A stretch of DNA of 43,341 bases from an uncultured Acidobacteriia bacterium (GTDB lineage: Bacteria; Acidobacteriota; Terriglobia; Bryobacterales; Bryobacteraceae). Below the pieces are notes generated by a model. The model did no database searches. It was not told the origin of the DNA and saw only the letters and a list, made by a program, of their open reading frames with translations. Position 1 is the first letter of the stretch. The number at the start of each line of letters is the position of its first letter. A program made the position numbers and the translations under genes. Positions 1 through 40,630 of this stretch are shown here, piece after piece. The stretch lies in assembly GCA_903907865.1 (NCBI GenBank), contig CAIVPR010000051.1, positions 1 through 43,341 of the forward strand, given 5' to 3'.

Positions 1-1
1 C

Positions 2-130
2 CTTCTCACAGCCACCCAAACCTGCCGCGTCCAGGGCCGCAATCCTCTCGACTACCTCAAACAGGCTGTCCGCTCACACCGCGCGGGCCTTCCCGCACCT
101 TCGCTCCTACCCGCCAAACCACGGGGCTGA
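2..130 (+). mobile_element. C-terminal end of an IS66-like transposase (partial)
   Basis: An open frame enters from the left edge and ends at a TGA at 128-130, giving about 42 residues. The tail reads CRVQGRNPLDYLKQAVRSH and then LPAPSLLP. An R-x-Q-G-x-N/D-x-L-x-(F/Y)-L segment followed by a proline-rich LPAPSLLP end is what I recognise from the C-terminus of IS66-family TnpC transposases. The catalytic part lies outside the window, and I could not identify the right terminal inverted repeat. Function and family are inferred from this tail alone. Confidence 0.55.
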
Positions 131-177
131 ACTGTTACGAATTCCTTAACAACTCGCTCTCCAGCCCCGTTACAAGA

Positions 178-183
178 TATACT
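178..183 (+). promoter_or_regulatory. Possible -10 box (TATACT) for the kinase operon
   Basis: TATACT matches five of six positions of the sigma-70 -10 consensus and sits 39 bases before the chosen kinase start, so a short leader would include the GGAGGG ribosome site at 212-217. No convincing -35 box is found at 16-18 bases upstream. The short gap (131-222) between the transposase remnant and the kinase gene leaves little other room for a promoter. Confidence 0.25.
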
Positions 184-222
184 CGTACCAACCCGCAGAT
201 GTTATCTTCGCGGAGGGCAACC

Positions 223-2328
223 ATGGATGAACTGCCGTTGAAGCCGGAACCGCTCGAAGGCTGGGGACCTTTCCGTCTGCTGGATCAGGTGGGAGAAGGT
301 GGATTCGGCGTGGTCTATCGCGCCTTGGACCCGAAACTGGACCGGGAGGTGGCCGTCAAACTGCTCAAGGTGACGACCGGGGGCGATTCGGGGTATGCCA
401 GCATCATCGCCGAAGCCCGTCGGATGGCCAAGGTGAAGCACTCCAACATCGTGCAAGTCCACGGTGTCGATATTTTCGATGGCCGTGTCGGATTCTGGAG
501 TGATTTCGTCAACGGGAAGACGCTCGACACCTTGTTAGCCATACAGGGCCCGTTCAGCGCCCAGGAAGCGGTCTTCATTGGCATCGAAGTCTGCCGCGCA
601 CTCGGTGCCGTCCATGGCGCGGGACTGCTTCACCGCGACGTCAAGGCCAGCAACGTGATGCGTGAGCAGGGCGGTCGGATCGTCCTGATGGATTTCGGGC
701 TGAGTTCGGAAGTCCACCAGACCGAGCTGCCTGGTGGAACTCCGGCCTGTATGGCACCGGAACTTTTCCACGGCCAGCCCGCATCCGTGGCTAGCGATAT
801 CTACGCTTTGGGTGTGCTCCTCTACTATCTCTGCAGCGCCAAGTATCCTCCGGGGAGCAAGGGCGTGGGCGTCCGGCGGACGCTGATGGATGAGCGGCCC
901 GATCTTCCCGAAGCGTTTGCAGCCGCACTGTCAACGGCAACCCACCAAAACCCGGCGGAACGCTTTCAAAGCGCGGGCGAAATGGCAACGGCGCTTGCCG
1001 CATCGCTGGGGACCACGGTGCCGGTCCTGTTGCCTAAAGCCACTCCTTCATCCCGCAGGATCCCGCTGCGTTGGTGGCACGGCGCTCTGGCCGCCGCCCT
1101 GCTGGTCGGCGGAGTCCTCTATTCTTCGGGTGTTCCAAACGGCCATTTGACCGGACACGCTTCCACGGCAAGTGACGACTACCTCAGACAGGCCGAGTCC
1201 TATCTGGAACGCGAAGACCGGCCCGAGGATATTGCGAAGGCCGTGGACCTGTTCCGAAAGGCGGTCGTTGCGGAGCCGACTTCCGCTCTGCCGCACTGCG
1301 GTTTGGCTCAAGCCTATCTAGCCTCGTATCGTGCCGGGAGGAACTCGGATTTGCTCCAGTCTGCCGTCGCCGAGGCCCGAAAGGCGATCAAACTGAACTC
1401 GGAACTTGCGGGGCCCCACATCACGATGGGACTCGTTTACACGACCACGAGCCAGTACGACAAGGCCAAGGAGGAACTGAACAAGGCAGTCGCCTTGGAC
1501 GCCACCGACGCCGAGGCATATGCGGCGCGCGGCAGGTTGTTTGCGGTTCAACACCGGGAAGGGGAGGCTATCGAGGCTTTCCAGCGAGCGGTTGCGCTCG
1601 GTGTGGGCGATTCGCGGTGGAACAACCAGTTCGGCCTGTATTATCTCTCCCTCGGCAAATACGAGGCGTCCGCCGACTGCTTTTCGGCGGTCCTTGCCAT
1701 TCAGCCCGACAATGTCTACGGCTTGGTCAACCTCGGGATTACCTTCTCGCGGCGTGATCGACTGACCGATGCGGAGTCTACTTTCCGCAAGGCATTGCGG
1801 CTGGACCCGGACTCCAGTCTCGCCCTGAGCAACCTGGCCTCCCTGCTTCTCCGGCTGGGGCGGAATGCCGAAGCGGTGGAAATGTATGAGAGGGCGGTGA
1901 GCCGGTCACCGGGAGACTACCGACTGCGGGCCAACTTGGCGTCGGCCTACCAGCGGACACCCGATGGCGGCGGCAAGGCCAACAAGGAGTATTTGAAGGC
2001 CATCGAACTGGCCTTGGAGTTGCGCAAGGCGCAGCCGAAGGATCCCGGAATCACGGTCAACCTCGGCAATTACTATGCTTCTGTCGGCGACAGAGCCAAG
2101 GCTTTGCCGCTGTTGGCGCAAGCCGGGGAACTCGCTCCCGGGGACCCGAACATCATGGCACACGTCGGATCCGGCCTCGAAAGGATCGGGCACCGCCCCG
2201 AAGCCATCCGGGCGATCTGCCAAGCGCTGAAGTTCGGATATTCGAAACAGTACTTGGCGAGCGACCCCGAATTGACAAGCTTGTTAAGGGATCCGCATTT
2301 CGTTGCAGCGTGTCCCGGGATGCGCTAA
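223..2328 (+). CDS. Membrane Ser/Thr protein kinase with C-terminal TPR domain
   Basis: Hanks-type kinase fused to a TPR array. Numbered from an upstream ATG at 199 (subtract 8 for the chosen start), the glycine loop GEGGFG is near 32-37, the ATP lysine in VAVK is K54, the catalytic loop HRDVKASN spans 145-152, DFG is 165-167 and APE is 186-188, so the kinase looks active. One membrane helix lies near 293-311, and the rest (about 330-700) is TPR-like helices, predicted to be on the far side of the membrane. I prefer the ATG at 223 because GGAGGG at 212-217 sits five bases upstream; the ATG at 199 has no such site. The gene is followed after 30 bases by the acidic repeat gene and then a protease, suggesting one operon. 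Kinase-TPR fusions are common in acidobacteria; the partner set is unusual. Confidence 0.9.
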   Translation: MDELPLKPEPLEGWGPFRLLDQVGEGGFGVVYRALDPKLDREVAVKLLKVTTGGDSGYASIIAEARRMAKVKHSNIVQVHGVDIFDGRVGFWSDFVNGKTLDTLLAIQGPFSAQEAVFIGIEVCRALGAVHGAGLLHRDVKASNVMREQGGRIVLMDFGLSSEVHQTELPGGTPACMAPELFHGQPASVASDIYALGVLLYYLCSAKYPPGSKGVGVRRTLMDERPDLPEAFAAALSTATHQNPAERFQSAGEMATALAASLGTTVPVLLPKATPSSRRIPLRWWHGALAAALLVGGVLYSSGVPNGHLTGHASTASDDYLRQAESYLEREDRPEDIAKAVDLFRKAVVAEPTSALPHCGLAQAYLASYRAGRNSDLLQSAVAEARKAIKLNSELAGPHITMGLVYTTTSQYDKAKEELNKAVALDATDAEAYAARGRLFAVQHREGEAIEAFQRAVALGVGDSRWNNQFGLYYLSLGKYEASADCFSAVLAIQPDNVYGLVNLGITFSRRDRLTDAESTFRKALRLDPDSSLALSNLASLLLRLGRNAEAVEMYERAVSRSPGDYRLRANLASAYQRTPDGGGKANKEYLKAIELALELRKAQPKDPGITVNLGNYYASVGDRAKALPLLAQAGELAPGDPNIMAHVGSGLERIGHRPEAIRAICQALKFGYSKQYLASDPELTSLLRDPHFVAACPGMR

Positions 2329-2358
2329 ACTAACATCGACATTGGGGAAAGGAATAGC

Positions 2359-3078
2359 ATGGCCAAGCATAAGAAGGAAATATCTGCCGAGGACAGAACC
2401 AGCGACTCAACTCGTGAGGATCGGCCCGGCGGGAGTCTTTCGCTTCCCGTAGACGTGCCCGGTGGAGAGCGCGCGGAACACGACGGGGATGGAGATGACG
2501 ATGACGCTTCTCTGCCCGACGATGTGACCGGCGGGAGTCTTTCCCTTCCGGTGGAATTGCCGGGTGGCGGCCACACCGAGCGCGACCATGACGATGACGA
2601 CGACGACGCCTCGCTCCCCGACGATGTGACCGGCGGGAGTCTTTCGCTTCCGGTGGAATTGCCGGGCGGCGGCCACACCGAGCGCGACCATGACGATGAT
2701 GACGATGACGCTTCTCTGCCCGACGATGTGACCGGCGGGAGCCTTTCGCTTCCGGTGGAATTGCCGGGCGGCGGCTACACCGAGCGCGACCATGACGATG
2801 ATGACGACGATGCTTCGCTGCCCGACGACGTGCCCGGCGGGAGTCTTTCGCTCCCCGTAGACCTGCCCGGCGGAGAGCACTCGGAACACGACGGGGATGG
2901 AGATGACGACGACGCCTCGCTGCCCGACGATGTGACCGGCGGGAGTCTTTCGCTTCCGGTGGAATTGCCGGGCGGCGGCTACACCGAGCGCGACCATGAC
3001 GATGACGACGACGCTTCTCTGCCCGACGACCTGCCCGGCGGGAGCAAAACACCGCCAGCAGAAGAACTGGATGTGTAG
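2359..3078 (+). CDS. Acidic tandem-repeat protein, unknown function
   Basis: A 239-residue protein made almost wholly of six 34-residue repeats flanked by a short charged N-terminus and the tail GGSKTPPAEELDV. Each unit has GGSLSLPVELPGG, then a polar stretch, then a run of four to six aspartates and ASLPDDV. No signal peptide or membrane helix is seen, so it is probably cytoplasmic and disordered. Every unit offers acidic-type phosphoacceptor contexts (S-L-P-D, T-E-R-D), which would suit the upstream kinase, and identical acidic peptides that would suit the downstream protease; both ideas are inference. The start at 2359 has GGGGAAAGG a few bases upstream. The stop at 3076-3078 directly abuts the ATG of the protease gene, pointing to translational coupling. 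I do not recognise a named family. Confidence 0.8.
   Translation: MAKHKKEISAEDRTSDSTREDRPGGSLSLPVDVPGGERAEHDGDGDDDDASLPDDVTGGSLSLPVELPGGGHTERDHDDDDDDASLPDDVTGGSLSLPVELPGGGHTERDHDDDDDDASLPDDVTGGSLSLPVELPGGGYTERDHDDDDDDASLPDDVPGGSLSLPVDLPGGEHSEHDGDGDDDDASLPDDVTGGSLSLPVELPGGGYTERDHDDDDDASLPDDLPGGSKTPPAEELDV
2428..3036 (+). repeat. Six tandem 102-bp coding repeats
   Basis: Units begin at 2428, 2530, 2632, 2734, 2836 and 2938. Five are 102 bp and the last is 99 bp because one Asp codon is missing. Two subtypes alternate in the order A-B-B-B-A-B: type A (units 1 and 5) carries EHDGDGDDDD, and type B (units 2, 3, 4, 6) carries TERDHDDDDD. Near-identity at the DNA level implies recent expansion or gene conversion. 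It is coding sequence, not a CRISPR array. Confidence 0.95.
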
Positions 3079-4515
3079 ATGCATCTACATTTCAACGGCA
3101 TAGACGGACACACGGGAAAGTACGCTTTTCCAAAGCTGTCCCCCGAAGAATTGGCCGACATAGCTCGCTTCAATTTGGACAGGCGCGCAACGGGCGATCC
3201 GCTCCATTTCCAAGACTTGGCAGACCGAGCCCAAAGGTACCACCCGGGAGTCTTCGAACTTTCGGACGGTCGGGATCCCAAGAACTTGGCTCAAGCCGGG
3301 TGGGCCGCCATCCTACCCCACGACGCCGACCCTGCCATACTAGCCGCCTTGCAGCCGCTGTTGGAACTCCGCCGGGAGCAGGCCTCCAAGCTGGATCCAA
3401 GGCGGTTCCAAGTCTTTTCGGGGCGCTCGGGTTTCCAGCCCGAACAGTCCAAGTCCAACTTTCTCGCGATCCACCACGCTGGCCGGGACTACGCCGATTT
3501 CCCCTATTACCTTCTGATCGTCGGCGGCCCGGACCAGATTCCGTTCTCATTCCAATACCAGTTGGATGTCGACTATGCCGTCGGTAGAATCCATTTCGAC
3601 TGTGTCGAGGACTACGCTCAATACGCTGCAAGCGTTGTCGCCGTCGAAGGGGACGGGTTCAGGCGACCGCGCAACGCTGTTTTCTTCGGAGTTCGAAACG
3701 GTATCGACGACTCGACTACCCGCACGTCAACCAACTTGGTAGCCCCGCTGAAGACCTCCCTAGAGAAGGATCAGCCGACATGGCAAGTGGATACCATCGA
3801 GCCCACAGAGGCAACCAAGGCGCGGCTGGCCCAATTGATGGGCGGCGACCAAACTCCGGCTTTCTTGTTCGCCGCCTGCCATGGCAGCGTGTTTCAACGC
3901 GGGGATCCCCGGCAATTGGCAGGGATGGGCTCACTTGTCTGTGCCGACTGGCAGGCGCCAGAACCCCCGCGACCCAAACCTGGCGATTGGTTCGGCGGTG
4001 ACGACATCTTGCGGGACGCCAACCTCAAGGGCCTCGTCGCGTTCCTCTTCGCGTGCTTCGGGGCGGGAACACCCCACAAGAATGACTTTGTCTACATGGG
4101 CGAAAATGAGCCGGCGGTCCTGGCGGACAAGCCCTTTGTGTCCTATCTCGCCAAACGTCTCTTGGCTCATCCAAAAGGTGGAGCACTGGCCGTGGTTGGC
4201 CATGTAGACCGCGCTTGGACCTATTCGTTCGAATCGCCCCATGGCGCGCCTCAACTGGACGCCTTCCAGAGTTGCCTGACACGGTTGATGGAGGGCCATC
4301 CCGTCGGCTCCGCGATGGAATCCTTCAACCATCGGTACGCGAATCTCTCGGTCGAGTTGCTGGACATGCTAACGAAGGCCAGCGTCTCGCCTGTCAACGA
4401 AACGAAATTAGCCGTCGAGTGGGCCTGCCACAACGACGCGCGCGACTACGTGATCATCGGCGATCCCGCAGTGCGCCTGTCCGTCGAAGAACTCAGCGGT
4501 AACCCATCGATTTGA
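3079..4515 (+). CDS. Caspase/gingipain-fold cysteine protease (C25-like, clan CD)
   Basis: A 478-residue protein with the hallmarks of clan CD peptidases, closest by eye to the C25 (gingipain) family. YYLLIVGGPDQIPF at about 143-156 matches the C25 core strand. A His-Gly pair follows a strand in FLFAACHG (H268), and the nucleophile candidate is C326 in AFLFACFGAG. GGALAVVGHVDRAW (367-380) and YVIIGDPAVRL (457-467) match the conserved C25 end segments. There is no signal peptide, unlike secreted gingipains, so it likely acts in the cytoplasm. It starts immediately after the stop of the acidic repeat gene (tag then ATG), a coupling typical of partners. The repeat protein could be substrate, inhibitor or activator; nothing in the sequence decides this. 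A CHAT-family assignment is the main alternative. Its 3' end overlaps the convergent GDPD gene by 23 bp. Confidence 0.75.
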   Translation: MHLHFNGIDGHTGKYAFPKLSPEELADIARFNLDRRATGDPLHFQDLADRAQRYHPGVFELSDGRDPKNLAQAGWAAILPHDADPAILAALQPLLELRREQASKLDPRRFQVFSGRSGFQPEQSKSNFLAIHHAGRDYADFPYYLLIVGGPDQIPFSFQYQLDVDYAVGRIHFDCVEDYAQYAASVVAVEGDGFRRPRNAVFFGVRNGIDDSTTRTSTNLVAPLKTSLEKDQPTWQVDTIEPTEATKARLAQLMGGDQTPAFLFAACHGSVFQRGDPRQLAGMGSLVCADWQAPEPPRPKPGDWFGGDDILRDANLKGLVAFLFACFGAGTPHKNDFVYMGENEPAVLADKPFVSYLAKRLLAHPKGGALAVVGHVDRAWTYSFESPHGAPQLDAFQSCLTRLMEGHPVGSAMESFNHRYANLSVELLDMLTKASVSPVNETKLAVEWACHNDARDYVIIGDPAVRLSVEELSGNPSI

Positions 4516-5278
4516 GGTATTGCACGAGTTCAGCCGGATGGTCGGTCTGGATGCCGGTCGCACCCCGGTCGATGGCGTCCTGCCATTTTTCCGGGTTGTC
4601 GGCGTTCCCCAGCCGGTCCACGTAGATGTCGACATGGGCGGCGCGCGCGACGGCGATTGTTTCGTCGTTGAAGTCGTTTGCGTCGAACGCGACAACCTTG
4701 AGCGGCAGAGCCTCCAGCAGTGATTTCAGCGTGGCCGGGTTGTTGGCCTCGGGCATCGCCTTCAGTTTTGGCTGCAGTGCGATAACCTCCCTCAGATAAC
4801 GGGCACCGCCATAGACCACCACCTTGTCGACCATGTCGTTACGGGTAAGTGCGTCTACGGCGTCTTGGGCGGAAATCCTTTTGCTGTCGACATACACGCC
4901 AATCTTGCCGTGGGCCAACTGCAACGCTTCGTCGAAGGTCGGCACGCGCGTGCCCGCCCATTCGGGCCCCATTTTGAGCCCGACTTCGAGCTTGCGGACA
5001 TCATCGAATGTCATGGCGGCGACATCGCCCTTGTAGTTGGTCATGCGGTCGATATTGGAGTCGTGCATCAGGACCAGCTTCCCGTCCGAAGTGGTGCGGA
5101 CGTCGAGTTCGAAGAAGTCGGCACCGGAGTCAATCGCGGCTTGGAAGGCGGCGAGCGTGTTTTCGGGATGGCGGAGGTGCTCGCCGCGATGGGCGATCAC
5201 CACGATGTGCTTCGACTGGGCGACGGAAGTGGTCGCAAAGCCGAGCGCGAGCAGTAGGGCGAAGAATACTTTGGCCAC
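4493..5278 (-). CDS. Secreted glycerophosphodiester phosphodiesterase
   Basis: Hydrolyses glycerophosphodiesters to glycerol-3-phosphate and an alcohol. An N-terminal signal peptide (hydrophobic core FALLLALGFATTS, likely cut near residue 21) is followed directly by the GDPD active-site signature: HRG at H30-R31, PENT at 38-41, E57 and D59 in FELDV, and H72-D73 in LMHD. At 261 residues it is the normal single-domain length. The start is a GTG at 5278 without a clear ribosome site. The 3' end overlaps the protease gene on the other strand by 23 bp, which limits independent change of both C-termini. The secreted acid phosphatase gene just upstream on the same strand suggests a shared role in scavenging phosphate outside the cytoplasm. 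Confidence 0.88.
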   Translation of the reverse strand: MAKVFFALLLALGFATTSVAQSKHIVVIAHRGEHLRHPENTLAAFQAAIDSGADFFELDVRTTSDGKLVLMHDSNIDRMTNYKGDVAAMTFDDVRKLEVGLKMGPEWAGTRVPTFDEALQLAHGKIGVYVDSKRISAQDAVDALTRNDMVDKVVVYGGARYLREVIALQPKLKAMPEANNPATLKSLLEALPLKVVAFDANDFNDETIAVARAAHVDIYVDRLGNADNPEKWQDAIDRGATGIQTDHPAELVQYLKSMGYR

Positions 5279-5285
5279 GGGGCAA

Positions 5286-5335
5286 GGATAGCAGGGACGG
5301 ATAGCAGGAATGGATAGCAGGAACGGATAGCAGCG
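5286..5335. repeat. 13-bp tandem repeat (about 3.8 copies)
   Basis: Four copies of GGATAGCAGGRAY sit head to tail, starting at 5286, 5299, 5312 and 5325, with the last cut short at the stop codon of the acid phosphatase gene. The copies differ by one or two bases. This fills most of the spacer between the phosphatase and GDPD genes. It looks like slippage of a simple sequence; no function is apparent. Confidence 0.85.
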
Positions 5336-6052
5336 CTATCGGAGCCCCAACGCCTTGCGGATCTCCGCCTTCGCCGCTGCCAACTCCTGCACGTAGTGCG
5401 GGTTCTTCAACAAGGCACCGATGAGCGTGTAGGCGATGGTCCGGCTGGCCACTTGATCGCTAGGGTAATGGGCACCGCAGACCAAACGGCTATGGGCGTA
5501 GTCGTCGGCCCGAGCGAAGATGTCGTCGCGCCTTTCGGGGACCGCCAGCGCCAGTGTCAAGCCCATCAAGTATCCGGTGGTCCCGTGGCCGCTGGGATAG
5601 GAGTAGTCCTGGGTGCTCATCGTGGTCTTGCAAACGGGCTTCAGGGTCGGGTCGAACTGGTACGGGCGGGGGCGGTGGAAGGCCTGTTTGAGCGGGCCGA
5701 GATTGGCACCCAGGTCGTTCCGGAGGTGATCGGAAAGCAGCTTGGTGGCCGGGAGCTTGTCGGCGGCAAAACCGGGTCCGAGGACGGTCGCATACAGGAA
5801 GATGTCATCGGCGGCCTCGTCCGCTTTGGCATGGGCAATCTGAGCCTCGGTGCGGGACTCCTGGATCTTGTGGAGTTCCGCCAAGTCCATGCGGATTTGT
5901 CCACTGTCCTGCGGCGGAGGAGGTGGCAGCAGCACGGTCCCGTTCAATTCGTCGGGACTGACGAAGATCGGTTTGCGGACAGGCTGGGTCTGCGCGGTTA
6001 GTAGGGTCGAAGCTCCGAGGATGACTGCGATGCGCGAAAGTCTTGATTTCAT
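5336..6052 (-). CDS. Periplasmic class A acid phosphatase (PAP2 superfamily)
   Basis: A 238-residue secreted phosphatase. The three-part PAP2 signature is intact: K-x6-RP at K122 to P130 (KQAFHRPRP), PSGH at 153-156 and SR-x3-GxH-x3-D at S188 to D199 (SRLVCGAHYPSD). A signal peptide covers about residues 1-20. Arrangement and length fit the PhoN/class A non-specific acid phosphatases rather than membrane PAP2 enzymes, since no multi-helix membrane region is present. The start ATG at 6052 has GAGGA close upstream. It is divergent from the vsr gene, and the GDPD gene follows on the same strand after a tandem-repeat spacer. Confidence 0.88.
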   Translation of the reverse strand: MKSRLSRIAVILGASTLLTAQTQPVRKPIFVSPDELNGTVLLPPPPPQDSGQIRMDLAELHKIQESRTEAQIAHAKADEAADDIFLYATVLGPGFAADKLPATKLLSDHLRNDLGANLGPLKQAFHRPRPYQFDPTLKPVCKTTMSTQDYSYPSGHGTTGYLMGLTLALAVPERRDDIFARADDYAHSRLVCGAHYPSDQVASRTIAYTLIGALLKNPHYVQELAAAKAEIRKALGLR

Positions 6053-6206: not shown

Positions 6207-6626
6207 GTGGTTGATTCGCTGACGCCAGAACGACGCTCCGAGGTAATGTCCCGGATCCGCTCCACCGACACCAAGCCGGAAATGCGGGTGCGGCGGCTGG
6301 CCTACGCTCTGGGTTTCCGCTACCGGTTGCATCGTAAGGACCTGCCGGGGAAGCCGGATCTGGTGTTCATCGGACGCCGCAAGGTGATCTTCGTGCACGG
6401 CTGCTTCTGGCACCTGCACGCGGGCTGTCCGGCTGGGAGGATTCCGAAGTCGCGGACGGAGTTCTGGGAAGAGAAGCTGAAGCGCAACCAGCAGCGGGAC
6501 GAGACGACGATGCGGGAACTGGTCGCGAAGGGGTGGCGGGTGCTGGTGCTGTGGGAGTGCCAGTTAAAGGATGAGAAGGCGCTGGCGGGGGAGATTTTTC
6601 GGTTTTTGGATACGCCTTCGCGATAG
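6207..6626 (+). CDS. vsr: Very short patch repair endonuclease (Vsr)
   Basis: Nicks DNA 5' of the T in T:G mismatches made by deamination of 5-methylcytosine. Recognition rests on RSEVMSRIRSTDTKPE near the N-terminus, the catalytic Asp in GKPDLVF (D51), the zinc and active-site segment VFIGRRKVIFVHGCFWHLH with C74 downstream, TEFWEEKL, and WRVLVLWECQ. I chose the GTG at 6207 because it puts VVDSLTPERRSEVM at the family's usual N-terminus; an ATG at 6168 would add 13 residues unlike the family. No cytosine-5 methyltransferase, its normal partner, is present in the window, so this is an orphan here. Confidence 0.9.
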   Translation: MVDSLTPERRSEVMSRIRSTDTKPEMRVRRLAYALGFRYRLHRKDLPGKPDLVFIGRRKVIFVHGCFWHLHAGCPAGRIPKSRTEFWEEKLKRNQQRDETTMRELVAKGWRVLVLWECQLKDEKALAGEIFRFLDTPSR

Positions 6627-12189: not shown

Positions 12190-12567
12190 TCAGCGCCAAA
12201 TCACTTCCAAGCGCGGGTATTCGGGGAAGTGGCCGTCGCTGCTGATGATCGGCAAGCCTTCGGAGAGGGCTTGGGCGATCAGCAGGCGGTCAAATGGGTC
12301 GCGATGTTTGCTCAGCCAGGGTAAGCGGGACAACTCTTCAATGTGGACCAATCGAATGGGAAGGATCTGGGCCGCCATGCAGGCGATTCCACGCTCGACA
12401 TCCGCTGGCGTGAGGCCGAGTTTTGGCTTGAGGGCAATCTCCCACGGTGAAACAATGCTCACGAGGTATTCCGTGGTCGGATGAGCCAAAACCCTGTGGG
12501 CACTTTCAGGAAACTGAATTCCGGTGATTAGCCGGATCACCGCATTGGTGTCCAAGAGGACCTTCAA
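12190..12567 (-). CDS. vapC: VapC-like PIN-domain toxin (pair 1)
   Basis: A 125-residue PIN-domain ribonuclease. Metal-binding acids are at the expected places: D6 in LLDTNAV, E43 in SPWEIALK, D90 in HRDPFDRLL and D111 in ISSDGHF. The start is TTG at 12567, inside a TTGA overlap with the antitoxin stop, a typical coupled arrangement. Targets (tRNA or rRNA) cannot be predicted. About 220 bases on the phoH side (11967-12189) hold no gene I can support. Confidence 0.9.
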   Translation of the reverse strand: MKVLLDTNAVIRLITGIQFPESAHRVLAHPTTEYLVSIVSPWEIALKPKLGLTPADVERGIACMAAQILPIRLVHIEELSRLPWLSKHRDPFDRLLIAQALSEGLPIISSDGHFPEYPRLEVIWR

Positions 12568-22830: not shown

Positions 22831-22834
22831 TGGC
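22776..22834. repeat. 59-bp direct repeat, copy 1 (cupin 3' end)
   Basis: Matches 23526-23584 at 58 of 59 positions, with 49 identical in a row (22786-22834); the one mismatch is at 22785. It covers the cupin C-terminus and stop, and ends within the stop codon of vapC on the other strand. Confidence 0.95.
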
Positions 22835-23214
22835 TACCAGATCGCTTGCGGATAGTTCAAGCGGATGTCCCGGTCGCGGCTGATCAAGACGGAATTCCGC
22901 ACCTTGGCCTGCGCCACGATGATTCGGTCGAACGGATCCCGAGTCCAATCCAAGCTCAACGCCTCGTGGGCCACGTCAGAAAACGGCAACGAGCATAAGG
23001 ATACCCCGAGCGTCGCGTTCAACGCGGTGTAGATCTCGGCGGCACGGTAGCGGATCTTCCCTGATTCGTGCAGGTACTCGAACTCCATCAGGACCATGGG
23101 GGAAATCAGCAGTTCGCTGCCTTCGATGCGCCGTTTCCCCTCGTCCCCCAGCAGTTCCGCCGCGCCCGCATGGAGGTAAACCGCCGTGTGCGTATCCAGG
23201 TAGATCGTGTTCAC
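22834..23214 (-). CDS. vapC: VapC-like PIN-domain toxin (pair 2)
   Basis: A 126-residue PIN-domain ribonuclease with acids D7 (YLDTHTAV), E44 (LMEFEYL), D93 (TRDPFDRII) and D114 (ISRDRDIR). The start is GTG at 23214, overlapping the antitoxin stop as GTGA. The TA pair fills almost exactly the space between two copies of a 59-bp direct repeat, with the vapC stop codon touching copy 1, which suggests the pair arrived as a cassette. Confidence 0.9.
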   Translation of the reverse strand: MNTIYLDTHTAVYLHAGAAELLGDEGKRRIEGSELLISPMVLMEFEYLHESGKIRYRAAEIYTALNATLGVSLCSLPFSDVAHEALSLDWTRDPFDRIIVAQAKVRNSVLISRDRDIRLNYPQAIW

Positions 23215-23610: not shown

Positions 23611-23988
23611 GTGAGCCAACCGGTCAAACTTTCGGATGCGTTGGTCTTGGACGCGCGGGTCGCGGGGGATGCTATGCAGCGTTCCATTGCGGGGCAGGTT
23701 GAATTCTGGGCGCGGATGGGTCGGGTGGTTGAGCAGTTGCTCGACGGACGGCATGCCATGGCCTTGGCCCGTGATGGCGGCGCGGTTCCACTGTCGGAAT
23801 GTTTGGATGCGGTGGACACCCCGGAGGGACGGGCCCGCACAATCCGCTTTTTGGACAGTCAACCCTTTCCCCACTACGAGGCGCATCCGGTGAAGCCCGG
23901 CGTCCTGATTCAGATTGAGGCGGACGGGACACGGTCCGAGGGTCGATTTGTGAACCGGCGTTTCTGTGCCGACGCTGCCGTCCGATGA
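23611..23988 (+). CDS. ParD-like antitoxin
   Basis: A 125-residue protein whose first 55 residues (VKLSDALVLDARVAGDAMQR then QVEFWARMGRVVEQLLDG) match the ParD-like antitoxin family, a ribbon-helix-helix-type DNA-binding start. The C-terminal half (GVLIQIEADGTRSEGRFVNR) is the extension common in this family. The start is GTG at 23611, preceded by a small hairpin. Its stop overlaps the start of the zeta toxin gene as ATGA, as expected for an antitoxin-toxin pair. Confidence 0.8.
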   Translation: MSQPVKLSDALVLDARVAGDAMQRSIAGQVEFWARMGRVVEQLLDGRHAMALARDGGAVPLSECLDAVDTPEGRARTIRFLDSQPFPHYEAHPVKPGVLIQIEADGTRSEGRFVNRRFCADAAVR

Positions 23989-24596
23989 GCGCCCTGCTGG
24001 AAACGCGGCCGGTGGTGGTAGCCGTGGCTGGACCCAACGGAGCGGGAAAAAGTACGTTCTACAAGGCGCACCTTCTTCCTGCGGGTCTGCGATTCGTCAA
24101 TGCCGACGTATTGGCAAAATCTTTGGAATTGGATCCGTACGTGGCTGCGCGTATGGCAGACGACCTGCGGCGGGAATTGGTCCGCCAGCGGGAGAGCTTC
24201 GTCTTTGAGACCGTGTTTTCGGATCCGGTTGGCGAGAAGGTCGCGTTCTTGAAGGACTGCGCCGGCCGTGGCCATAGCGTTGTGCTTTGTTTTATTGGAC
24301 TGGCGTCATCCGACGTGTCCGACGAGCGTGTTGCCATGCGCGTGCTTCAAGGGGGCCACGACGTGCCTATCGAAAAGCTGGTCGCGAGGTTTCCCCGAAC
24401 TTTGGACAATCTAGCACTGGCCATTCGAGAACTGCCGCACGTTCGGGTATACGACAATTCCGACTTGCGGCATCCGTTCCGGCACGTGTTGTCTGTCGAT
24501 TCGGGGCGGATTGCGGCAGTGCACCCACCTGTACCGGAATGGTTGGCGCGCTCGCTGCCTGACCGACCTGCTAAATTGAAGACGCCATGCGCGTGA
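23985..24596 (+). CDS. Zeta-toxin-like P-loop kinase
   Basis: A 203-residue kinase. Walker A GPNGAGKST at 16-24 follows a hydrophobic strand, with FVNADVLAK (the conserved Asp of the zeta/PezT substrate site) and an FVFETVFSDP segment typical of the family. Zeta toxins phosphorylate UDP-N-acetylglucosamine and block peptidoglycan synthesis; this smaller type is usually found beside ParD-like rather than epsilon antitoxins. It overlaps the antitoxin gene by four bases and rsmD by ten. Confidence 0.85.
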   Translation: MSALLETRPVVVAVAGPNGAGKSTFYKAHLLPAGLRFVNADVLAKSLELDPYVAARMADDLRRELVRQRESFVFETVFSDPVGEKVAFLKDCAGRGHSVVLCFIGLASSDVSDERVAMRVLQGGHDVPIEKLVARFPRTLDNLALAIRELPHVRVYDNSDLRHPFRHVLSVDSGRIAAVHPPVPEWLARSLPDRPAKLKTPCA

Positions 24597-40091: not shown

Positions 40092-40364
40092 TTAGTCGAA
40101 CAACTCGCTATGGCTTCCGGTCCGAACCAAGGTCAACGATGTATTCGTGAACCTGTAGAGAAGCAACCAATCGGGCCCGACGTGACAGTCCCAATGACCT
40201 GCCCAGTTGCCCCGGAGAGGGTGTGGGCGGCAACGGGATGGCAGCGCCTGCTGCGCCTGAAGCAGATCCACGATGACCTCCAGCTTGTCCAAGTCCTTGC
40301 CCTGCTTCTCAATCCTCCGTAGATCGCGTTCGAACGCGGTCGTCGTGAGAAGTGCGAGGGGCAT
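40092..40364 (-). CDS. yafQ: YafQ-like mRNA interferase toxin
   Basis: A 90-residue RelE-superfamily toxin. FERDLRRIEKQGKDLDKLEV, PHPLRGNWAGHWDCHVGPDW and LLLYRFTN then RTGSHSELF follow YafQ closely, including the catalytic histidine near the C-terminus. It should cleave mRNA on the ribosome. The ATG at 40364 overlaps the antitoxin stop as TGATG; a GTG one codon earlier is also possible. Confidence 0.92.
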   Translation of the reverse strand: MPLALLTTTAFERDLRRIEKQGKDLDKLEVIVDLLQAQQALPSRCRPHPLRGNWAGHWDCHVGPDWLLLYRFTNTSLTLVRTGSHSELFD

Positions 40365-40630
40365 CACATTTTTCCGCGGAGCTCCCGGAACGACGCGTAC
40401 CGGTTGAGCCGGGCTGAATCATTGGCTTCCAACATCGCTGCGACCGTCTCGGCGTTCGGGACAGTCACGGGAAAGGGCAGGCCTTGATGCAACTCGACCT
40501 GCTTCAGGAACAGCCGAATTGCTTCCGTGGTCGAGATGCCGATCTTTCCGAAGACCTGTTCGGCCGCTTCCTTAAGGTCGGGGTCGATGCGGGCATGAAT
40601 CATGTGGGTCTTGGGACTTTGGGTTAGCAT
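40364..40630 (-). CDS. dinJ: DinJ/RelB-like antitoxin
   Basis: An 88-residue ribbon-helix-helix antitoxin. MIHARIDPDLKEAAEQVFGK, STTEAIRLFLKQVELHQGLP and a C-terminal toxin-binding tail (AMLEANDSARLNRYASFREL) match DinJ. The start could be the codon at 40630 or the internal ATG of MIHARIDP. It is coupled to the toxin gene. Confidence 0.92.
   Translation of the reverse strand: MLTQSPKTHMIHARIDPDLKEAAEQVFGKIGISTTEAIRLFLKQVELHQGLPFPVTVPNAETVAAMLEANDSARLNRYASFRELRGKM

Follow-up and report, generated by a model that had tools for sequence, protein, structure and literature searches.

Three adjacent genes near the start of a contig from an uncultured Acidobacteriia bacterium of the Bryobacteraceae (GenBank assembly GCA_903907865.1, contig CAIVPR010000051.1) encode a membrane serine/threonine kinase, a small acidic repeat protein and a cysteine protease of the C25, or gingipain-fold, family. 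We found gasdermin, CHAT and nSTAND1 genes among the neighbours of its relatives, which places the protease family in a conflict- or death-like context. We tentatively propose that the trio forms the controlling part of a proteolytic switch for cell death or defence, in which the C25 protease would be the executioner, the repeat protein its decoy and the kinase the gate, a possibility that we place short of an even chance. Behind it stand gene order, the predicted fold and conserved dyad of the protease, the neighbourhoods of its relatives, the enrichment of a short motif and selection on several of the repeat proteins.

The window analysed here is the whole stretch of 43,341 nucleotides, which is the entire contig (C51 of the source genome, G000); that genome amounts to 7.5 Mb in 186 contigs, and its completeness is given as 98.27%. 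The features at issue are these:

1..222, no strand: contig edge 5′ of the kinase (start of contig)
223..2328, + strand: Ser/Thr protein kinase with a predicted membrane helix and a C-terminal TPR region (Pfam, NCBIfam, motif reading)
2359..3078, + strand: acidic protein of 239 aa with six repeats of 34 aa, the last of 33 (open reading frame (ORF), TRF)
2428..3036, + strand: tandem repeat array of six units of 102 bases, the last of 99 (TRF)
3079..4515, + strand: C25 (gingipain-fold) cysteine protease of 478 aa (Pfam, conserved dyad, fold)
3880-3882, + strand: codon of the predicted catalytic His268 (conservation)
4054-4056, + strand: codon of the predicted catalytic Cys326 (conservation)

Residues 353-467 of the third gene product, and no others, match Pfam Peptidase_C25 (PF01364), at an E value of 2.7e-9 and 37.2 bits (cut-off 23). 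H268, G269 and C326 are invariant in 17/17 sequences, H268 and C326 also in 54/54 homologues, and the catalytic part is predicted to take the gingipain fold, at 11-14% identity to gingipains; a sequence search of solved structures gave no match, either with the protease alone or with its alignment. Taken together, these features support the window protease as a member of the wider C25 family with a clan CD fold and a conserved His/Cys dyad. Two other assignments were rejected. PF01364 is the sole Pfam family reported for the protein up to an E value of 1, which speaks against a CHAT protease. Classical gingipains carry a secretion signal and a C-terminal Ig-like domain; the window protease has no signal peptide by reading, its N-terminus is not hydrophobic, and the gingipain-aligned part runs to residue 472 of 478 with no further C-terminal domain, which rules out a classical secreted gingipain; the enzyme seems to remain intracellular. 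Unlike the gingipains RgpB and Kgp, it adjoins a kinase and a repeat gene, and its relatives lie beside gasdermin and CHAT genes.

The kinase domain is well defined (Pkinase PF00069, E 3.7e-38), with the catalytic motifs VAVK, HRDVKASN, DFG and APE legible in the translation. A start at ATG 223, with GGAGGG just 5′ of it, was taken, and a further in-frame ATG lies at 199. By reading, a single predicted membrane helix occupies the hydrophobic stretch of residues ~284-304; the C-terminal part matches TPR families in Pfam as well as the TPR end-of-group profile NF047558 (54.3 bits, cut-off 32), and this region would be extracytoplasmic if the kinase domain is cytoplasmic. A PASTA kinase of the PknB type was rejected, as NF033483 scored 160.5 bits against a cut-off of 450 and TPR, not PASTA, appears among the 25 of 30 Pfam families shown. 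At E<=1e-120 the kinase has 17 matches, spread over 14 of 151 genomes, the source genome included.

A sequence-only reading of the same DNA had described much of this, and these parts of it hold: the three codirectional genes lie within 223..4515 with gaps of 30 and 0 bases, as it stated; TRF and a reading of the units bear out its 239-residue protein of six acidic repeats, with a sixth unit of 33 aa; the motifs and domain matches above agree with its predicted Ser/Thr kinase with membrane helix and TPR region; and the dyad and fold likewise uphold its clan CD protease with a His-Gly/Cys dyad and no signal peptide.

C25 relatives are patchily distributed, in 17 of 151 genomes of the relatives set (the source genome included), 31 of 237 at the family level and 13 of 396 at the phylum level. 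Scanning a genome-contig collection with the protease alignment gave 260 places; the best 80 of the 260, which are those we analysed, belong by record title to cyanobacteria, Chloroflexi, Acidobacteria, Planctomycetota, a myxobacterium, Burkholderiales and others. The same collection scanned with the single window protein yielded no confirmed relative. Of 72,556 plasmid records, 8 gave a match, and in three of the 8 the gene carries the annotation C25 family peptidase. Two of those three were examined, a plasmid of Nostoc sp. MS1 (locus L249) and a conjugative Sinorhizobium terangae plasmid (L248), and on both the C25 gene has CHAT genes nearby; the plasmid records held no match to the gasdermin of locus L024.

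To describe the neighbourhoods we used 133 C25 proteins of at least 350 aa, which after removal of 8 near-duplicates represent 125 distinct loci. Within five genes of C25 we found CHAT at 56 loci, nSTAND1 at 51, an alpha/beta hydrolase at 30, a kinase-TPR protein at 25 and a gasdermin at 8, counts that are lower bounds because many loci stop at a contig edge, and for which the search profiles were themselves derived from a small number of genes in the loci counted. Gene calls in the relatives come from a simple custom caller, so that starts and some small ORFs are uncertain. The gasdermin assignment is based on the L024 gene (PADLOC, E 5e-58; NCBIfam NF051890, 182.5 bits, cut-off 100). Among the 396 phylum genomes a gasdermin occurs in three, beside C25 in two of those (G503, G309), and the third (G469, L247) shows no C25 in the 15.5 kb read. 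In two loci the hydrolase and C25 are fused in one open frame (L195, 1390 aa; L196, 960 aa), which supports a functional link between them.

C25 genes, mainly in Chloroflexi, also adjoin a family of ~250 aa (A4; L132:9949-10752 and relatives), two members of which have no match above cut-off in Pfam and one none in NCBIfam; the L132 member finds no PDB fold match at E<=0.001. It ends in two long helices, one of them hydrophobic-rich, and is a candidate effector. It is followed in several Chloroflexi C25 loci by a protein of ~110 aa (L102:3177-3509, L065:10795-11130 and others), whose L102 copy has no Pfam match.

These neighbourhoods also bear on the possibility that the C25 protein has a housekeeping role in protein processing, its setting being a coincidence. 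In favour of this, 29 of the 125 loci have no partner family within five genes, and a reading of the window suggests housekeeping functions for many of its other genes. The patchy presence described above, the association with gasdermin, CHAT and nSTAND1 and the plasmid copies near CHAT genes all argue against it, and we consider it very unlikely.

Next we examined the gene between kinase and protease, which we call the slot gene. The kinase lies directly upstream of C25 (same strand, at most 2 genes away) in 15 of the 125 loci, and in 15/15 of these a small ORF fills the gap. Chance ORFs are common in such DNA, and kinase rows were therefore compared with other gene rows: a net-acidic ORF starts no more than 120 nt beyond the gene in 11 of 19 rows of such kinases, or in 8 of 16 after removal of three duplicate loci, and in 9 of 486 rows of other genes. 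The slot protein is acidic with tandem repeats in 8 of the 15 (the window, L022, L024, L030, L114, L117, L119 and L128), acidic and of low complexity in one (L034), Lys-rich in three (L020, L031, L194) and short and beta-rich by eye in the remaining three (L076, L127, L202); its sequence is not conserved between loci. This constancy of place (15/15), with sequences hardly alike, would fit selection on motif copy number as the trait.

Several claims of the sequence-only reading have to be revised accordingly. The trio is conserved in relatives only in part: the small slot gene keeps its place, in the minority of C25 loci with a kinase directly upstream. An acidic repeat protein is not a general part of the trio, given the lack of sequence conservation, the three Lys-rich slot proteins and the three of another kind. 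S/T-x-x-D sites, suggested as phosphorylation targets in each repeat, are not common to all slot proteins, since that of L194 has 2 Ser/Thr in 116 aa. The idea of a death or stress switch agrees with the conflict- or death-like setting of the C25 family, but the trio itself is not general.

In the window, TRF reports the array at period 102 with 5.4 copies and a score of 808, and the units begin at residues 24, 58, 92, 126, 160 and 194. Pairwise DNA differences among units 1-5 number 28, 28 and 118 at codon positions 1, 2 and 3; the amino-acid sequence of the repeat is therefore kept, and the array as a mere fresh DNA duplication or artefact is ruled out. The corresponding counts are 0, 0 and 18 in L030, 13, 18 and 68 in L024, 3, 3 and 21 in L128, 12, 16 and 107 in L230, and 0, 0 and 185 in L194, so that several slot repeat proteins, where counted, show the pattern of selection on amino-acid sequence; the slot ORFs of L020, L031 and L034 (43-56 aa) fell outside this check. 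The L194 slot gene (L194:4984-5334) is Lys-rich, with at least 13 KKAPA units and 185/185 of its pairwise DNA differences at third codon positions, and its product has the opposite charge to the window repeat protein in the same slot. At L022 (2442-6078) we observed a decayed kinase-slot-C25 set, with a broken kinase, an in-frame stop in the start of C25 and an open slot gene.

The slot protein might instead serve the kinase alone, perhaps as a scaffold or signal that the kinase phosphorylates, with its place before the protease a matter of operon layout. Kinases of the same clade have small downstream ORFs, of putative gene status, with no C25 nearby, and some of these ORFs are alike between genomes (26/35 residues for L232/L234, where the L234 kinase contig also bears C25, and 20/41 for L241/L244). 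The source genome has a second kinase of this type (L224, G000:C98:126290-128377; 43% identity); a short acidic ORF comes after it too, and the 17 kb read there contain no C25. On the other side, loci with the kinase-slot-C25 layout occur in scattered places on a tree of 123 C25 proteins (two of the 125 omitted). The layout requires 7 changes on this tree (shuffled mean 14.4), and well supported branches force at least 4 of them; it has therefore been gained or lost several times. A short motif common to the C25-linked families, described below, also speaks against a role for the kinase alone. A profile of five SFPI-type slot proteins (A3) gave five matches in 237 genomes, all of them the profile's own source genes, so that no SFPI copy is known away from C25 and no independent case exists. 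We judge the kinase-only explanation to be distinctly unlikely.

We then examined the repeats themselves. Those of the SF type read PVSFPIxDP, KPSFSDG, DDKPSFS and similar, and these slot proteins carry the motif repeatedly along one chain. Copies of [VILAPMS]SF[ADGSP] number 23 in 16 slot proteins (shuffled mean 1.3, maximum 4), 41 in 29 proteins of the ~250-aa family (3.5, maximum 9) and 56 in 34 hydrolases (10.0, maximum 20), whereas the background, taken from 546 other proteins, is 0.48 per 1000 aa. In nSTAND1 proteins the rate is also elevated, at 0.97, probably because of the WD40 word FSPDG. When all tripeptides were ranked with no preset motif, VSF came out on top in the ~250-aa family, as did SFG in the hydrolase. 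The strict motif occurs at 2.26 per 1000 aa (7 in 3094 aa) in hydrolases near C25 (seven rows, L256 in the wrong frame) compared with 0.54 per 1000 aa (2 in 3702 aa) in eight rows of distant homologues away from C25, three of which come from genomes bearing C25 elsewhere (G007, G010, G012). Besides the N-terminal LIAFD, 27 of the 29 listed full-length hydrolases have at least one copy of a looser [SAT]F word, the exceptions being L108, with none, and L033, with a single copy at its end.

In gasdermins of C25-bearing genomes, [SAT]F[ADGS] lies 22-37 residues from the C-terminus in 10/10, with a regular expression that was fitted to the observed sequences; the word is missing there from the two controls that we had, L247 and PDB 7n51. 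Slot protein and gasdermin of one genome can carry similar words, SFSD and TSFSDAD in L030, SFSDG (in a slot-type protein) and VSFSEY in G013. In G013 a kinase, an 88-aa (TKPSFSDGA)n gene and a gasdermin gene are neighbours in that order, with the C25 gene on another contig. For the ~250-aa family, the only one so modelled, the AlphaFold model of the L132 member has three internal low-confidence stretches that hold two SF copies and a VSY variant (29-33, VSFAA; block 91-100, VSFDAASFG; block 121-130, VSY variant), while a fourth word, ATF at 3-5, sits at a strand start. The position near the gasdermin C-terminus and in the L132 model loops suits a C25 recognition or cleavage site, and we infer that the motif may serve as one and mark the targets of the protease. 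Each repeat unit of the window contains LSLPV and ASLPD, which read as a Leu version of the SFPI pattern (at least 2 words per shuffled unit, P 9.5e-5, with a pattern drawn from the relatives).

Under the proposed mechanism, the C25 protease would act as an executioner enzyme that recognises a motif of roughly the form [V/L/A]-S-F-[D/G/S/A/P], with Leu for Phe in the window. Its targets would be marked by the motif, the gasdermin near its C-terminus, the alpha/beta hydrolase at internal sites and the C25-linked family in loops. With many motif copies on an acidic and probably disordered chain, the slot protein would keep the protease occupied. It would do so as a multivalent decoy or pseudosubstrate where the Phe or Leu is followed by Pro, as in the window and the SFPI type, and would perhaps be a consumed substrate where it is not, as in the KPSFSD type. 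The TPR part of the membrane kinase may sense an extracytoplasmic signal, and the kinase would phosphorylate or bind the repeat protein and so set the amount of free protease. A repeat decoy of this kind may be compared with calpastatin acting on calpain and securin on separase.

The same repeats can be read as a consumed substrate, cut at each unit to free peptides or a bound partner, with copy number as a threshold and no inhibition involved. That the motif is common to repeat proteins and likely targets suits this equally, and the small residue after Phe in KPSFSDG (L230/L245) and DDKPSFS (L024, L030) looks cleavable. There is also about one Lys or Arg per unit in L024, L030, L128 and L230, and one Arg in five of the six window units; gingipains prefer Arg or Lys and would suit one basic residue per unit, a clue that we rejected as the main one and keep solely within this explanation. 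Pro follows Leu or Phe in the window and the SFPI type, however, and Pro after a cleavage residue usually blocks cleavage; the Lys-rich slot proteins, moreover, have no motif. We regard consumption as unlikely, and a role as decoy as somewhat more probable.

Many similar motifs on one chain could also make the repeat protein a multivalent activator, on which several proteases dock and activate by proximity under control of the kinase. Caspase-fold enzymes are often activated by induced proximity, which counts for this view, but gingipains are thought to act as monomers, this analysis gave no sign that the C25 clade needs dimers, and several short slot proteins have one motif or none. We see little chance for such an activator.

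Several observations weigh against a motif-bearing decoy under control of the kinase. The window repeats themselves have no strict motif copy and read SL-P instead, so that their link to the motif would run through the weaker LSLPV/ASLPD pattern. Seven of the 15 slot proteins are not acidic tandem repeats, the three Lys-rich ones lack the motif altogether, and the 29 loci with no partner family and the same-clade kinases with small ORFs away from C25, both given above, belong here too. Over their whole length, gasdermins show no enrichment of the strict motif (3 copies, compared with 1.8 after shuffling). In the hydrolase, the GHSFG nucleophile elbow accounts for about half of the SFG signal (HSF 21 of SFG 39). 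Motif counts by regular expression are partly circular because the motif was first spotted by eye, which the tripeptide ranking alone escapes, and the fitting of the gasdermin pattern counts in the same direction. Finally, the source genome gave 0 gasdermin matches in a search that was positive in 8 of 29 C25-bearing genomes, no hydrolase at E<=1e-15 and, in a search run with no positive control, no member of the ~250-aa family, at a locus whose upstream side is cut off by the contig end.

A more far-reaching version of the decoy reading holds that control resembles that by securin or calpastatin: the kinase would set a fast-evolving tandem-repeat decoy whose S-[F/L] words imitate the sites at which gasdermin and further death effectors are cut, and which gates an intracellular gingipain-fold executioner. 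S-[F/L] would then be the substrate code for a whole family of death or defence loci built around C25, in Acidobacteria, Chloroflexi, cyanobacteria and others. We consider this generalisation rather unlikely as it stands. If it is true, the gingipain fold would join the proteases that run bacterial gasdermin-type death, a readable substrate motif would predict targets in many unannotated loci, and bacteria would provide an example of a clan CD protease with a decoy under kinase control.

Known systems offer partial parallels, and the trio would belong among the conflict or death systems built around a caspase-fold protease. As in bacterial gasdermin systems, C25 relatives adjoin gasdermin genes, in some loci also with STAND or NACHT proteins, but the two papers cited next name other proteases and the source genome has no gasdermin match. 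In the portion available of PMC9612521, bacterial gasdermins are cut ~20 residues from the C-terminus by a protease encoded nearby, and the linked peptidases are named as C14, CHAT and U49, with 0 occurrences of C25; the Runella gasdermin is cut after Leu247, in a loop, and the gasdermin protease there is trypsin-like, not C25 (PMC9079055). Unlike Craspase (TPR-CHAT), the window protease has no CHAT match, and no Cas7-11 is apparent among the window genes, where no search aimed at Cas7-11 was made. The Canu caspase-nuclease system (PMC12799240) likewise combines a caspase-fold protease with a dedicated co-encoded target in variable loci; it differs in using a MALT1-like caspase with an Ig-like fold and a nuclease, and its main text has 0 occurrences of "kinase" and "C25". 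Kaur et al. 2020 and 2021 (PMC7159879, PMC8195603) describe STAND NTPases, caspases, alpha/beta hydrolases and S/T kinases in regulated death or immunity loci; gingipain and C25 have 0 occurrences in both main texts and gasdermin 0 in that of 2021, and within the available portions no set of kinase, small variable protein and C25 appears. In the literature searched, outside which most subscription papers and preprints lie, the visible text of the top titles reported neither C25 in gasdermin-type loci nor a set of kinase, hypervariable repeat gene and C25, and no paper pairs "C25 family" with "gasdermin".

Around the trio, the upstream neighbours of the kinase are hidden because the contig starts 222 bases 5′ of it; the frame 2-127 at the contig edge has no Pfam match at E<=0.001. 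An Rfam scan of window positions 1-6000 gave no match at gathering score, a promoter scan found 0, and a terminator scan found 4 against 4.8 in shuffles. Further along, the window encodes a Vsr DNA mismatch endonuclease (6246-6626, PF03852), two PIN-domain proteins (12190-12567 and 22834-23214), a ParD-like antitoxin followed by a zeta-toxin-like gene (23611-24596; PF11903, PF06414) and a RelB-like protein (40364-40630).

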